Part shown: positions 25,502 through 30,614 of the stretch, piece by piece
Numbering within the stretch: position 1 is the stretch's first letter
How the letters are laid out: the number at the start of each line of letters is the position of its first letter
Assembly: GCF_012516375.2 (NCBI RefSeq)
Contig: NZ_CP051204.2
Coordinates: forward strand, 1,612,001-1,676,000
Reading direction: 5' to 3'
Source of the DNA: Chitinophaga oryzae
GTDB lineage: Bacteria; Bacteroidota; Bacteroidia; Chitinophagales; Chitinophagaceae
Length of the DNA stretch: 64,000 bases
Program-made: the position numbers and the translations under genes
Notes under the pieces: model-generated
Seen by the model: the letters and a program-made list of their open reading frames with translations, nothing else
What the model was told of the DNA's origin: nothing
Databases searched by the model: none

Positions 25502-26164
25502 TTAGTGTTGCAGGAGCAGTGTCAGCCGATGGTCGTTGAAGTCCAGCAGGGAATCCAGCTGCATGTTGGCAAGCGCATAACGCGGGTCGTGACGGTTATG
25601 CGGCTCCGGCACCACCACGGTAGTCATCCGCGCTGCTTTGGCGGCGGTCATGCCGGTAACGGAGTCTTCAAAAGCGATACAGTCCAGCGGATCGGCGTGC
25701 AGCGCTTTGGCGCAGGCCAGGTACACGGCCGGATGCGGTTTACCATAATCCTCGAACTCTGCAGAATATGCCGCCTGAAAGTATTCCCGGATATCAAGGT
25801 GGGCCAGCACCGCCTCAATCAGCCGCAGGGGAGAAGAGGAGGCCAGTCCGATTTTAAAATCCTTCGCTTTGAAAAACTCCAGGATGTATTGCAGCCCTTC
25901 CATCGCCTTGCCTTCCGCGATGATCTTAGTCGTTACGCTGTCAATGATTTCGTTGGTGACCTGCTCCGCACTTTTGCCTTCCCACTTAAAATAGCTGTGC
26001 CAGTAGCTGACTACCTCCCGGGTGCGAAGCCCGGTGGTTTTGTGGGTCAGTTCGGGGGACAGGGTGACGCCCACCGTCGCAAAAACTTCTCTCATCGCAA
26101 TGCCCCACAGTGGCTCTGAGTCCACCAGCAGGCCATCCATATCGAATATTACCGTATTGATCAT
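25502..26164 (-). CDS. HAD-superfamily sugar-phosphate phosphatase (HxpB/YniC-like)
   Basis: 220 residues with the four HAD motifs: DMDGLLVDSEPLW (nucleophile and acid Asp), the Thr/Ser motif GLASSSPLRL, the Lys in EDYGKPHPAVY, and FEDSVTGMTAAKAARMTTVVVP. The cap insertion after motif I (about 15-85) is the small helical C1 type. Overall it resembles hexitol/2-deoxyglucose-6-phosphatases and beta-phosphoglucomutases; the DSEPLW variant favours the phosphatase group. Substrate remains an inference. First gene of a likely two-gene unit with the cyclase-family hydrolase. Confidence 0.88.
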   Translation of the reverse strand: MINTVIFDMDGLLVDSEPLWGIAMREVFATVGVTLSPELTHKTTGLRTREVVSYWHSYFKWEGKSAEQVTNEIIDSVTTKIIAEGKAMEGLQYILEFFKAKDFKIGLASSSPLRLIEAVLAHLDIREYFQAAYSAEFEDYGKPHPAVYLACAKALHADPLDCIAFEDSVTGMTAAKAARMTTVVVPEPHNRHDPRYALANMQLDSLLDFNDHRLTLLLQH

Positions 26165-26849: not shown

Positions 26850-26880
26850 TTTGGAAAGACCAAGGGCGTTTTTATCTTTG
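26850..26880 (+). promoter_or_regulatory. Consensus promoter of the sulfite reductase leader
   Basis: TTTG at 26850-26853, exactly 19 nt, then TATCTTTG at 26873-26880: a perfect match to the Bacteroidota housekeeping promoter. Transcription should start near 26887, about 20 nt before the leader ORF. Confidence 0.8.
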
Positions 26881-26907
26881 TATTACTCTACTAAAATTAT
26901 AGGGAAT

Positions 26908-26985
26908 ATGGGTAATAAGGAAGCGAGGATGATGGTCAGCCACTATAATTGTTGTTGCAGTGCAGCAGCAGCGGAACGCGTGTAG
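26908..26985 (+). CDS. Cys-rich leader peptide (putative attenuator peptide)
   Basis: A 25-codon ORF with AGGGA 3 nt before its ATG. It encodes HYNCCCS with three consecutive Cys codons (TGT TGT TGC, 26950-26958), then four Ala codons and TAG. It lies between a consensus promoter and an intrinsic terminator, upstream of genes for sulfide production. The Cys codons form the 5' arm of a small hairpin (26952-26968) whose 3' arm is the Ala codons. A strand spanning the last codons and stop (26977-26985) can pair with 27044-27051 inside the terminator. These are the parts of a translation-coupled attenuator sensing charged tRNA-Cys. An in-frame ATG pair at 26929-26934 could give a shorter peptide that keeps the Cys run. 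Confidence 0.65.
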   Translation: MGNKEARMMVSHYNCCCSAAAAERV

Positions 26986-27034
26986 TATGCAACATGGATA
27001 AGTTTATTTAATAACACTCATCTCAGTTATACAC

Positions 27035-27063
27035 AGCCTCCGCCTACAGCGGGGGCTTTTTTT
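27035..27063 (+). terminator. Attenuator terminator before the sulfite reductase gene
   Basis: A 9-bp GC-rich stem (AGCCTCCGC / GCGGGGGCT, one T-G pair), loop CTACA, followed by seven T's. It stands between the leader ORF and the structural gene start at 27109 on the same strand, so it must be passed for operon expression. The alternative pairing of 27044-27051 with 26977-26985 would prevent it. Confidence 0.8.
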
Positions 27064-27108
27064 ACCACCAATTACCACGATTTTTACCACCACCTGAAAA
27101 TACTTTAT

Positions 27109-29220
27109 ATGCAAAGCTTCAGAACAGAACTTGAAAATCCCATTGTACAACAGGATATCATCGACCTGGAGAAGAAGATCCGCCTGTTCCGCGAAGGGGC
27201 TATCACGGACGAAAAATTCCGTAGCCTCCGGCTGGCGAGAGGGGTGTATGGTCAGCGTCAGCCCGGTGTGCAAATGGTGCGCATCAAATTACCCTATGGT
27301 AAAATGACACTGCAACAGTGGAAACGTATTACAGAAGTATCCGACGAATATGCTACCAGCAACCTGCACCTGACTACCCGCCAGGATGTGCAGATACACT
27401 ACGTGAGCCTCGACAGAACACCGGAACTGTGGCACACGCTGGAACAGGACGAAATCACCATCCGCGAAGCCTGCGGTAACACCGTCCGCAACATCACCGC
27501 TTCCGACCGCGCCGGCATCGATCCGGAGGAACCGTTTGATGTAACACCTTATGCAGACGCCACCTTCCGCTACTTCCTGCGCAACCCTGTCAGCCAGGAG
27601 ATGGGCCGTAAAATAAAAATCGCTTTTTCCTCTTCTGAAAAAGATACTGCCTGGGCTTTCATGCACGACTTCGGCATGATCCCCAAAGTGAAAATCATCG
27701 ACGGCAGGGAAGTAAGAGGCTTCAAAGTATTGGTAGGCGGCGGTTTGGGCGCACAGCCCTTCCTGGCTAAACCGGTATATGAGTTCCTGGAAACAGACCT
27801 CCTCATCCCTTACATCGAAAACGTATTGCGCGTGTTCGACCGCTATGGCGAAAGGACCAGCCGCAACAAAGCCCGCATGAAATTCCTTATCCAGAAAATA
27901 GGCATGGAGGAGTTTGAACGCCTCGTCAAAGAGGAATACAAAGCGGTGAAAGTGAAAAGCGTACCGGTAGACGCTGCTGCATGGCCGGCAACACAACCGC
28001 CGGTGATTGGTGAAATCCCCGCTTACACCATTAAAAATCCGGCAAAATACGAAGCCTGGAAAAAGACCAACGTATTTGAACAGAAGCAGAAAGGCTACTA
28101 CGGCGCTTACGTGAAAATTACCCTTGGCAACATCGGCTCTGCTGTCAGCCGCCAGCTGATAGAAGCGCTGCGCCCGGTGATCGCGGACGATGTGCGAGTG
28201 ACCGCCAACCAGGGACTGCTGCTGAAGTTCATCCTGCCGGAACACCTGCCGTACGTATACAGCGCACTGGAAGCCGCCGGCTTCGCTGAACCGGGATTCG
28301 ACAGCATCGCGGACATCACCGCCTGCCCCGGCACGGATACCTGCAACCTCGGTATCTCCAACAGCACCGGTATCTCCAAAGTGCTGGAATCCGTTATCAC
28401 CGACGAATTCCCCGACCTGATCTACAACAAGGACATCAAAATAAAAATCAGCGGCTGTATGAACTCCTGCGGCCAGCACGGTATCGCCAGCATCGGCTTC
28501 CATGGCTCTTCCATGAAAAGCGCCGGTAAAGTGCTGCCAGCCCTTCAGGTATTGCTGGGCGGCGGTATCGTAGGCGACGGCGTAGGCCGCGTAGCGGACA
28601 AAGTGATCAAAGTGCCCAGCCGCCGCGGCCCCGACGTACTGCGCAGCCTCCTGCATGACTACGAAATCAACGGCGCGGAAAATGAACTGTTCAACGATTA
28701 CTACGACCGCCAGGGCGAAAAGTATTTCTACGAACTGCTGAAACCGCTGGCAGACCTGACCACCCTTACCCCGGCAGACTTTATCGACTGGGGCCAGGTG
28801 GAAAACTATGCCACCGCCATCGGCGTAGGCGAGTGCGCCGGCGTCATCATCGACCTGGTAGCTACCTTGCTGCTGGAAGCGGAAGAGAAAATCGAACTCG
28901 CTACCCTCGCTATCAGCAAAGGCGCTTATGCAGACGGTATCTATCACGCTTACTCCACCTTTGTACAGGGCGCTAAAGCGCTGCTGCTCGGCGAAGGCGT
29001 CAGCGGTAACACCCAGATCGGCATTATCAACGATTTCGATAAACACTTTGTAGCTACCGGTAAATTCAGCTTCGAAACAGACTTCAAGACACAGGTATTG
29101 CAGATTAACGGGAACGAGCCTACGGAAAGTTTCGCTAACGCCTACTTCCAGCAGGCACTGTCTTTTTACAATGCAGCACAGGTTTACCGGCAGAAAACGG
29201 CTGAACCGGCGCAGGCATAA
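27109..29220 (+). CDS. Assimilatory sulfite reductase hemoprotein with C-terminal HEPN-like domain
   Basis: 703 residues. Two ferredoxin-like/siroheme half-domain pairs as in nitrite/sulfite reductases: the N-terminal half has HLTTRQDVQIHYV, the C-terminal half the four cluster cysteines C406-x5-C412 (ACPGTDTCNLG) and C450-x3-C454 (SGCMNSCGQHG) that hold the coupled [4Fe-4S]-siroheme centre. Siroheme-synthesis genes follow directly. Sulfite rather than nitrite as substrate is inferred from the Cys leader. The last 130 residues or so (ATLAISKGAYADGIYHAYSTF and onwards) are outside the reductase fold and look like an all-helical HEPN-type domain. No flavoprotein partner is encoded here, so the electron donor is probably ferredoxin. 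Confidence 0.9.
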   Translation: MQSFRTELENPIVQQDIIDLEKKIRLFREGAITDEKFRSLRLARGVYGQRQPGVQMVRIKLPYGKMTLQQWKRITEVSDEYATSNLHLTTRQDVQIHYVSLDRTPELWHTLEQDEITIREACGNTVRNITASDRAGIDPEEPFDVTPYADATFRYFLRNPVSQEMGRKIKIAFSSSEKDTAWAFMHDFGMIPKVKIIDGREVRGFKVLVGGGLGAQPFLAKPVYEFLETDLLIPYIENVLRVFDRYGERTSRNKARMKFLIQKIGMEEFERLVKEEYKAVKVKSVPVDAAAWPATQPPVIGEIPAYTIKNPAKYEAWKKTNVFEQKQKGYYGAYVKITLGNIGSAVSRQLIEALRPVIADDVRVTANQGLLLKFILPEHLPYVYSALEAAGFAEPGFDSIADITACPGTDTCNLGISNSTGISKVLESVITDEFPDLIYNKDIKIKISGCMNSCGQHGIASIGFHGSSMKSAGKVLPALQVLLGGGIVGDGVGRVADKVIKVPSRRGPDVLRSLLHDYEINGAENELFNDYYDRQGEKYFYELLKPLADLTTLTPADFIDWGQVENYATAIGVGECAGVIIDLVATLLLEAEEKIELATLAISKGAYADGIYHAYSTFVQGAKALLLGEGVSGNTQIGIINDFDKHFVATGKFSFETDFKTQVLQINGNEPTESFANAYFQQALSFYNAAQVYRQKTAEPAQA

Positions 29221-29247: not shown

Positions 29248-30024
29248 ATGCAACAGATACAACCTAAACTCACATTGGTAGGCGCCGGTCCCGGCGATCC
29301 GGAATTGATTACCGTAAAAGGCATGAAAGCCATTCAGGAAGCGAAGGTAATCCTCTACGATGCGCTGTCCAGCAACGAACTGCTGGATTATGCCCCTGCC
29401 GGTTGCCTCCGCCGTTTCGTAGGAAAACGCGCCGGCATGCATGTGTACACACAGGATGAAATCAACCGCATGATTGTAAAATATGCGCTCAGCTACGGAA
29501 GCGTGGTAAGACTTAAAGGCGGCGACTCTTTCGTGTTTGGCCGCGGTCAGGAGGAAATAGCATTTGCACAACAATTTGGCATCACGGCAGAAGTAGTACC
29601 GGGTATCTCCAGTGCTATTTCTGTCCCCGGTGTCAATAAAATCCCGGTGACGGCCCGCAACGTCAGCGAAGGCTTCTGGGTAATCACCGGCAATACCCGC
29701 AACGGCAACCTCTCCAGGGACCTCCAATATGCCATCCAGGCCAACACCACCGTGGTTATTCTGATGGGAATGAGCAAACTGGCGGAAATAGCTGGTATAT
29801 TTGCTGAAAGCGGCAGAGGCGATACGCCCGCCGCTATCATCCAGAACGGCACCCTGCCCAATCAACAGATCGGCATGGGCCGCGTGGCCGACCTGCAGGA
29901 AATTGCCGCTGCGCAACAGCTCTGCAATCCGGCCATCATCGTTGTAGGGGAGGTAGTACGATTTCATGAAGATTTTACCACCCTGCAATCCAGGGTAGCC
30001 GAAGAACTTAAAATCGCTGTATAA
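29248..30024 (+). CDS. cobA: Uroporphyrinogen-III C-methyltransferase
   Basis: 258 residues. It methylates uroporphyrinogen III twice with SAM to precorrin-2, the branch point to siroheme and cobalamin. Family blocks: LVGAGPGDPELITVKG at the N-terminus, VVRLKGGDSFVFGRGQEE, VVPGISSAISVPGVNKIPVT, and a late VVGEVVRF. It starts 27 nt after the sulfite reductase stop and overlaps the next gene by one base (TAATG), so the three genes form an operon that makes the enzyme and its siroheme cofactor. Confidence 0.95.
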   Translation: MQQIQPKLTLVGAGPGDPELITVKGMKAIQEAKVILYDALSSNELLDYAPAGCLRRFVGKRAGMHVYTQDEINRMIVKYALSYGSVVRLKGGDSFVFGRGQEEIAFAQQFGITAEVVPGISSAISVPGVNKIPVTARNVSEGFWVITGNTRNGNLSRDLQYAIQANTTVVILMGMSKLAEIAGIFAESGRGDTPAAIIQNGTLPNQQIGMGRVADLQEIAAAQQLCNPAIIVVGEVVRFHEDFTTLQSRVAEELKIAV

Positions 30025-30614
30025 TGGAAAATCAGTTGTTCCCGGTTTTTTTTAAGCTCAACCGCCTTCACGTCCTCGTGGTAGGCGGTGGCAATATTGG
30101 ACTGGAGAAAGCGAACGCTATCCTGCAAAACTGCGCGGAAAGCAATATCACCATCGTTTCGCTGGACTTCCTGCCTGAACTGGAAGACATCGCCCGGCAG
30201 TTCCCCAACGTGGAACTGGTACGCAAACCCTTTTCCTGCGGCGACCTGCTCGGAAAAGACCTGGTGATCGCCGCTACCAACGACAAAACACTCAATTATA
30301 CCGTGTGGGAAAAAGCGAAAGGGGCGAAGGTGCTGATCAATGTGGCAGACACCCCCGAGCTGTGCGACTTCTACCTGGGGTCCATCGTACAGAAAGGCAA
30401 CCTGAAAATTGCCATTTCCACCAACGGGAAATCACCTACCGTGGCCAAACGTCTCAAACAGGTGCTGCAGGAAGCTATCCCTGACGCCCTCGATGAGGTT
30501 TTACAAAAACTGCACATCATCCGTGACAAGCTGAAAGGAGATTTCGCCGCCAAAGTAAAACAGCTGAACAATATCACAGACGTGCTGGTAAAGCCGGAAA
30601 AAGAAAACGCCTGA
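30024..30614 (+). CDS. Precorrin-2 dehydrogenase / sirohydrochlorin ferrochelatase (CysG N-terminal/Met8-type)
   Basis: 196 residues. The N-terminal Rossmann domain carries VVGGGNIGLEKANAILQ and VIAATNDKTLNYTVW. The middle has VADTPELCDFYLGSIVQKGNLKIAISTNGKSP-type sequence, the SirC/Met8 dimerisation and catalytic region with the conserved Asp of NVADTPELCDF. It oxidises precorrin-2 with NAD and inserts iron to give siroheme. The length fits the stand-alone form (E. coli fuses it to CobA in CysG). Translationally coupled to cobA through TAATG. Its stop abuts the convergent DUF488 gene, with no terminator between. Confidence 0.92.
   Translation: MENQLFPVFFKLNRLHVLVVGGGNIGLEKANAILQNCAESNITIVSLDFLPELEDIARQFPNVELVRKPFSCGDLLGKDLVIAATNDKTLNYTVWEKAKGAKVLINVADTPELCDFYLGSIVQKGNLKIAISTNGKSPTVAKRLKQVLQEAIPDALDEVLQKLHIIRDKLKGDFAAKVKQLNNITDVLVKPEKENA

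Follow-up and report, generated by a model that had tools for sequence, protein, structure and literature searches.

A cysteine-codon leader that appears to control a sulfite reductase operon by transcription attenuation in a soil Chitinophaga

Classical ribosome-mediated attenuators control the trp, his, thr and leu operons. Bacteroid-trp RNA is a Trp leader. This RNA is catalogued as RF01692 (PMC2864571, in the part cited). Cys leader peptides were predicted in 2005 by Seliverstov for cys operons of Mycobacterium and Propionibacterium acnes, and for cbs of Bifidobacterium longum (PMC1262725). A first-pass annotation of the locus described below had mentioned such leaders in mycobacteria. The prediction extends to other Actinobacteria, and the passages cited describe no conserved terminator hairpins (PMC1262725). 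Papers citing Canestrari 2020 state, in the passages used, that mycobacterial Cys leaders are cysteine-responsive. Citing papers likewise describe the M. smegmatis Cys leader as leaderless and acting by translational attenuation. In Streptomyces lividans, the metL leader precedes metNIQ and ends in a mixed Cys/Met stretch, CMCRRMC. Its authors ascribe it to Met and Thr; in the sections cited, they report no typical Rho-independent terminator (PMC8079986). For Bacteroidota, leader peptides have been suggested for amino-acid operons of Flavobacterium psychrophilum (PMC9723704). Leader-peptide attenuation has also been suggested for Bacteroides thetaiotaomicron, which has long 5' UTRs with short ORFs (PMC7366714). 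These two cases and Bacteroid-trp share the phylum and the general mechanism with our locus; the passages concerned name no cysteine leader. The leaders suggested in F. psychrophilum may overlap those that we found before MetY or serine acetyltransferase. Literature searches of open-licence papers turned up no Cys attenuator in Bacteroidota.

Here we describe a leader in a window of 64,000 nucleotides, the whole stretch of DNA analysed, from the 8.36 Mb genome of Chitinophaga oryzae. Like the his and trp attenuators, it very probably acts by ribosome-mediated transcription attenuation, with cysteine supply, in the form of charged Cys-tRNA, as its signal. This soil bacterium appears to turn on sulfur-assimilation genes only when charged cysteine tRNA runs short. 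Read from the DNA, its parts are a promoter, an ORF with Cys codons, a putative antiterminator strand at the leader end, a terminator with a 5' arm that could be captured and an operon downstream. Such anatomy would place the locus in the attenuator class. Shared with the trp, his, thr and leu attenuators are a short ORF with codons for the end product, an antiterminator strand at the leader end, an overlapping intrinsic terminator and a biosynthetic operon downstream. Conversely, the signal (Cys, possibly also Met), the operon (sulfite reduction and siroheme) and the host (Bacteroidota) differ. Also unlike those attenuators, many relatives have, by eye, a Cys hairpin that adjoins the antiterminator strand without overlapping it. 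The actinobacterial and Chitinophaga leaders have in common short ORFs that contain runs of Cys codons and precede cysteine genes. What distinguishes the Chitinophaga leaders, as far as the actinobacterial ones are described in the passages cited, is a conserved intrinsic terminator together with an antiterminator strand that matches it. In these passages, the mycobacterial-type leaderless polycysteine ORF has no intrinsic terminator (PMC1262725), whereas the window has one. The metL leader, which precedes a methionine gene cluster, also contains both Cys and Met, as described in its source, but is actinobacterial. If our reading is true, cysteine supply is read by the classical leader-peptide/terminator device, which, with no terminator in the passages cited, was incomplete for cysteine in Actinobacteria in 2005 (PMC1262725). 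Attenuation would also extend to sulfur assimilation in Bacteroidota.

Coordinates are those of the window, and features are on the plus strand unless stated. The promoter, read from sequence, has a -33 box, TTTG (26850-26853), and a -7 box, TATCTTTG (26873-26880), separated by 19 nt. Bacteroidota promoters have the consensus TTTG-N19-TAnnTTTG. The TAnCTTTG of the -7 box is invariant across a 38-sequence alignment. The leader peptide ORF, MGNKEARMMVSHYNCCCSAAAAERV, has 25 codons and a stop (26908-26985), with ATG at 26908-26910 and TAG at 26983-26985. From the distance between the end of the -7 box (26880) and the ATG (26908), the 5' UTR is predicted to be about 20 nt long. Codons 8 and 9 are Met-Met. 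Three consecutive Cys codons, TGT TGT TGC (26950-26958), are the predicted ribosome stall site. An intrinsic terminator (27035-27063; -16.3 kcal/mol) follows, with a stem of nine pairs, seven of them G-C (27035-27057), and seven T's (27057-27063). The first-pass annotation had listed this promoter, the 25-codon ORF with three Cys codons and a GC-rich terminator with seven T's; all are present where it placed them.

The operon begins with a sulfite reductase hemoprotein-type gene (27109-29220) encoding 703 aa. The protein scores above cut-off for Pfam NIR_SIR and NIR_SIR_ferr, and every NCBIfam NirA/Sir-type match to it is under its cut-off. Next are genes for a uroporphyrinogen-III C-methyltransferase of the cobA/cysG C-terminal type (29248-30024; TIGR01469 above cut-off) and a protein of the precorrin-2 dehydrogenase type, the CysG N-terminal domain (30024-30614; TIGR01470 above cut-off). 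By family assignment, the genes downstream of the leader are those of sulfite reduction and siroheme. In the ORF list, the likely upstream gene (25502-26164) is on the minus strand. Hence, the terminator, which lies 3' of the promoter, is not the end of that gene. A putative plus-strand ORF of 260 aa is antisense to it.

We sorted 46 loci of the Chitinophaga clade by hand. A leader was counted if at least two Cys fell within eight residues and the ORF lay at the conserved anchored place. An anchored Cys-cluster leader, a short ORF between promoter and structural gene, was present in 37 of the 46. Conservation of the ORF, proposed as a check by the first-pass annotation, was thus found. The nine loci without one are L026, L027, L028, L032, L036, L040, L044, L050 and L054; the ORFs that the scan printed for L027, L032, L036, L050 and L054 lie away from the anchored place. 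Counting the window, CC occurs in 29 of 38 leaders and CC or CxC in 35. The peptide flanking the Cys residues varies by group (HYNCCC, NGCSCC, NSCC, VACCWMSM, NMCMCCW, KMCCCM, CHCS). The HYNCCC peptide, whose conservation had been anticipated, is kept only in the closest group; elsewhere, Cys codons recur in shifting positions.

Leaders of ten groups contain 27 Cys, against 7.3 expected (0/5000 shuffles). By reading frame, Cys makes up 27 of 232 residues in the leader frame, and 11 of 222 and 9 of 222 in the two others. Synonymous-biased substitution, a further expectation of the first-pass annotation, was absent; 9 of 70 changed comparisons were synonymous at Cys codons versus 134 of 605 at other codons. 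Hence, selection seems to act on Cys content, not on fixed positions. The residue was retained more often at Cys codons (0.76) than at other codons (0.63).

As a control, we counted Cys-cluster short ORFs having a terminator of -12 kcal/mol or below within 70 nt. These occurred in 36 of 46 regions upstream of sulfite reductase, in none of the 46 reverse complements and in 4 of 552 windows drawn at random from flanks. Irrespective of the terminator, Cys-cluster ORFs were found in 42 of 46, 7 of 46 and 69 of 552, respectively. In L026, L027 and L044, a GGAGGC strand and a terminator-like stem are retained without Cys codons. Hence, the structural part can exist without the sensor. L028 likewise has the strand and stem with no Cys cluster at the leader position, and these four loci are possibly decayed or rewired attenuators.

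We propose the following mechanism. The leader ORF would be translated. With Cys-tRNA scarce, the ribosome would stall at 26950-26958, its footprint ending near 26968. The strand 26971-26989, which spans the leader stop codon, would then be free to capture 27028-27043. Within this 3' strand, 27035-27043 doubles as the terminator 5' arm, so that no terminator would form and the operon would be transcribed. Conversely, with Cys-tRNA plentiful, a ribosome at the stop codon (26983) would cover the antiterminator strand. The terminator (27035-27057) would form and RNA polymerase would stop near 27063.

Folding predicts that the antiterminator of the window is a long hairpin, with an outer stem of 26971-26975 and 27039-27043 that extends inward to 26989 with 27028. 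The pairing of 26971-26979 with 27036-27043 has -10.0 kcal/mol. The first-pass annotation had chosen 26977-26985 and 27044-27051 instead. Here, 8 bp can be written but, at -7.7 kcal/mol, these are weaker. Furthermore, the terminator-loop half, 27044-27051, changes even among the closest relatives (CTACAGCG in the window, CCACAGCG in L005, ACATAGCG in L006 and AGACAGCG in L007). The core of that proposal, that a stalled ribosome frees the antiterminator and one at the stop codon permits the terminator, is supported by the comparisons below, while the exact pairing is replaced by the modelled one. A hairpin of Cys codons and Ala codons (26950-26973), also noted earlier, does exist. It pairs 26950-26958 with 26965-26973 (-11.8 kcal/mol) and would correspond to segments 1:2, possibly as a pause hairpin. 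It is not universal; in 16 leaders, window included, it beats shuffles at 0.05 in six and at 0.13 in ten.

Across 38 aligned leaders, the terminator core hardly varies (GCCTCC...GGRGGC-T(n)). Of the 37 leader-bearing Chitinophaga loci, four (L018, L025, L033 and L042) gave no hairpin in a strict scan, and a laxer T criterion (4 of 10 bases) gave a terminator in each. By the laxer scan, all 43 leaders analysed have one; L027, L032, L036, L050, L051, L054 and L060 had been left out as spurious or doubtful ORFs. In the 43 leaders, a strand at or near the leader stop codon pairs with the terminator 5' arm and extends into a long hairpin. Chitinophaga leaders place the stop codon 5-12 codons after the last Cys. 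No riboswitch, T-box or known leader family in Rfam matched the region at curated score; RF01692 does not match, and the best hit was Leu_leader (24.5 bits, cut-off 50).

To model capture of the terminator arm, we folded RNA ending at the terminator loop and placed a ribosome at either the last Cys codon or the stop codon. The model treats truncated RNA at folding equilibrium and assumes that the ribosome footprint reaches A-site +12. Over the 43 loci, the mean capture probability was 0.74 at the last Cys codon versus 0.15 at the stop. Both thresholds, above 0.5 at the Cys codons and below 0.3 at the stop, were passed by 29 of 43. The window has 0.85 and 0.31. Folding of the two states, suggested as a check, thus gave the expected capture at the Cys codons, and the window narrowly misses the threshold at the stop. 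Dinucleotide shuffles of the stretch from Cys codons to terminator gave a contrast of 0.09, against 0.64 observed (0/20000 over 13 groups); singly, two of the 13 groups miss 0.05 (0.078 and 0.100). Without a ribosome, RNA ending at the terminator loop antiterminates as well (mean 0.72), whereas the complete window leader folds with the terminator formed. By prediction, the antiterminator excludes the terminator and depends on ribosome position.

The match between leader end and terminator arm was assessed by swapping terminator arms among leaders, one per group, and comparing pairing with own and foreign arms. With 13 groups, 67 of 20000 permutations were as good as the true partners. With 22 leader groups, own partners beat swapped ones (0/100000). 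For the larger swap, L039 was used for L029 in one group and nine groups were added; the L013 strand was begun 6 nt earlier and the terminator arm was taken without the preceding 12 nt. The own arm was best of 22 for six leaders and within the best three for 12; in L039 and L158, it pairs worse than the average foreign arm. Within the ten Chitinophaga groups alone, the swap was not significant (2404/20000, or 21549/100000 with the changed choices) because the terminator arm barely varies there. Hence, the covariation that the first-pass annotation looked for is found across the 22 groups but not within Chitinophaga, and its support comes from distant leaders. In these, the matching pair is replaced as a whole, such as GTGCGGA with TCCGCAC in L159 and L160. 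Against shuffles, only 7 of 13 leader-end strands are better at 0.03, and the window has 0.097.

A scan of the genome collection gave 80 sulfite reductase loci, the best 80 of 111 relatives; of these 80, Chitinophaga eiseniae DSM 22224 has the closest sulfite reductase (98%). In genomes of the same family, 74 of 117 have a match to the sulfite reductase, many of them weak. We read the 22 best-matching loci (L155-L176), comprising the window's own, two partial and 19 others. A Cys leader with terminator was seen in five of the 19: L157, of the same genus, and L158, L159, L160 and L167, of four other genera. The geometry of these last four is that seen in Chitinophaga. The rest of the 19 have no Cys leader with terminator, and most have an operator-like palindrome by eye. 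Three sulfite reductases are identical to those of loci already counted (L156 and L032, L161 and L049, L173 and L059). In a FastTree tree built from 98 sulfite reductases, 48 rows have the leader, 47 lack it and three are unknown; the leader needs at least eight changes, versus a shuffled mean of 31.6. The 32-row clade that includes the window keeps the leader in every row. Five distant Bacteroidota loci (L056, L063, L064, L066 and L068) have CC leaders with terminators. In four of these (L056, L064, L066 and L068), a second CC ORF lies upstream, giving tandem Cys-containing leader ORFs before sulfite reductase; by eye, the first ORF has a terminator in L056 and L066.

Similar leaders precede other genes. 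The coding pattern for MCCMM occurs at 58 places in 48 of 395 Bacteroidota genomes; a reversed control, which is not a fair one for coding DNA, gave one place. Of 30 loci fetched, 12 have a short leader ORF with terminator, before MetY (five), glutamate dehydrogenase (four), serine acetyltransferase (two) and rhodanese (one). Family matches were checked for one gene of each kind, and the others were named by shared N-terminal sequence. The MetY checked is TIGR01326; the serine acetyltransferase is above the cut-off of NF041874 and below that of TIGR01172. The other 18 loci have no leader with terminator and mostly look like unrelated coding sequence. We folded 16 leaders, five of sulfite reductase and 11 others (L136 and L137 were left out). 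In raw values with no shuffle control, capture in 15 is 0.60 or more at the Cys codons and 0.35 or less at the stop; L133 failed (0.23 to 0.16). Of 60 genomes from the family to which G343 belongs, 43 have a MetY match; 30 loci were fetched and 26 were oriented. A CC leader with terminator was found in 2 of 26, one being G343, already found by the MCCMM pattern. Hence, the MetY leader is patchy. Bacteroidota may carry an undescribed class of sulfur-amino-acid attenuator, which we propose tentatively. It would count Cys and Met codons, sometimes in tandem with separate terminators, and occur patchily before sulfite reductase, MetY, serine acetyltransferase, rhodanese and glutamate dehydrogenase, having been repeatedly gained and lost beside Rrf2 control.

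Some side observations concern these loci. Tandem Cys-containing leader ORFs are found upstream of MetY in L129/L197 and L222, each ORF with its own terminator in L197 and L222. A SAM-II riboswitch (RF01726, 48.9 bits) lies on the minus strand at L129 1196-1302, near the tandem MetY leaders. Glutamate dehydrogenase, which is not a sulfur gene, is preceded by Met/Cys-rich leader ORFs with terminator in L131 (checked by Pfam), L135, L136 and L137. In several of these, a second short Cys-containing ORF comes after the leader.

The presence of Met alongside Cys raises an alternative, in which the ribosome stalls on either codon and the leader measures both supplies. With start codons excluded, 22 representative leaders have 64 Met codons, against 12.7 by shuffling (0/2000). 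Similarly, there are 21 versus 5.5 in the ten Chitinophaga groups, and 20 versus 4.4 in seven sulfite reductase leaders outside Chitinophaga that were found without the Met pattern (both 0/2000 shuffles). The window leader itself carries the Met-Met pair. Conversely, the start is the sole Met in L159 and L160, and the Met codons may serve as alternative starts or simply reflect TG-rich sequence. In the window, the Met codons lie 16-21 nt ahead of the first Cys codon, and a ribosome there is also predicted to leave the antiterminator free. Hence, folding cannot separate a Met from a Cys signal. Such dual sensing is possible, if on balance doubtful. As Met and Cys codons are enriched together, the idea that one leader can weigh two related amino acids is directly testable.

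We think it quite unlikely that the nascent peptide, rich in Cys and Met, is itself a metal or redox sensor. It would bind copper, for instance, or be oxidised and so stall the ribosome, with Cys acting as a residue and not through tRNA demand. Motifs of the MCCMM type could bind Cu(I), sulfite reductase carries Fe-S and siroheme, and 4 of 12 MCCMM leaders precede glutamate dehydrogenase, a non-sulfur gene. However, the fixed peptide motif expected of a metal-sensing uORF was not found. The Cys run shifts in form, position and context (CCC, CSCC, CHCS, CMCC) with no fixed surrounding motif. A stop so soon after the last Cys in Chitinophaga leaves little chain, and 8 of 12 MCCMM leaders, like all sulfite reductase leaders, precede sulfur genes.

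An imperfect palindrome, CTCTACTAAAATTATAGGG (26886-26904), is conserved in the alignment of leaders and is probably the operator of an Rrf2-family regulator. Under the attenuation reading, a repressor of this type would probably add control at initiation. That it is the sole control, with a leader ORF of no regulatory role and a terminator acting as a constitutive brake, is highly improbable; similar palindromes (by eye) do occur upstream of sulfite reductase loci with no Cys leader, and some Chitinophaga do have a terminator-like stem with no Cys codons, but the Cys enrichment, the effect of ribosome position and the leader-end/terminator-arm match over 22 groups would be left unexplained.

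The palindrome has, by eye, the form CTACTAAAtNAGTAG near the presumed transcript start of sulfite reductase in the window (26886-26904), L058, L059, L162-L164, L166 and L168-L173. In L052 and L059, genes resembling the Rrf2 regulator of the C. oryzae genome are directly upstream of sulfite reductase. In C. oryzae, the cysH-cysD-cysN operon has no Cys leader; an Rrf2 gene (by Pfam) and an operator-like site lie upstream.

The sulfite reductase operon is the only sulfur operon of the genome with such a leader, among cysHDN, six PF01053 genes and one serine acetyltransferase homologue. The six PF01053 homologues are full-length and the serine acetyltransferase match has one internal stop codon. 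Two of these seven (L185 and L189) have a short ORF with CC within 700 nt on their coding strand. That of L189 was rejected as a leader, with no strong terminator (-4.7), and that of L185 by chance overlaps a SAM riboswitch. In the C. oryzae genome, a gapped promoter/TGYTGY/T-run pattern was not discriminating (151 matches versus 113 in the reversed control). The conserved 5' region, allowing at most 3 mismatches, gave one exact site, that of the window, and 4 weak ones versus 6 control matches. The sequence TAYAAYTGYTGYTGY occurs at four places; the three outside the window lack a leader ORF of this kind and resemble coding sequence of unrelated genes. The SAM riboswitch (RF00162, 75.1 bits; L185 1197-1307) lies upstream of a PF01053 gene and is followed by a terminator. 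Finally, the window has a tRNA gene (RF00005, 68 bits) at 1420-1493 on the minus strand.
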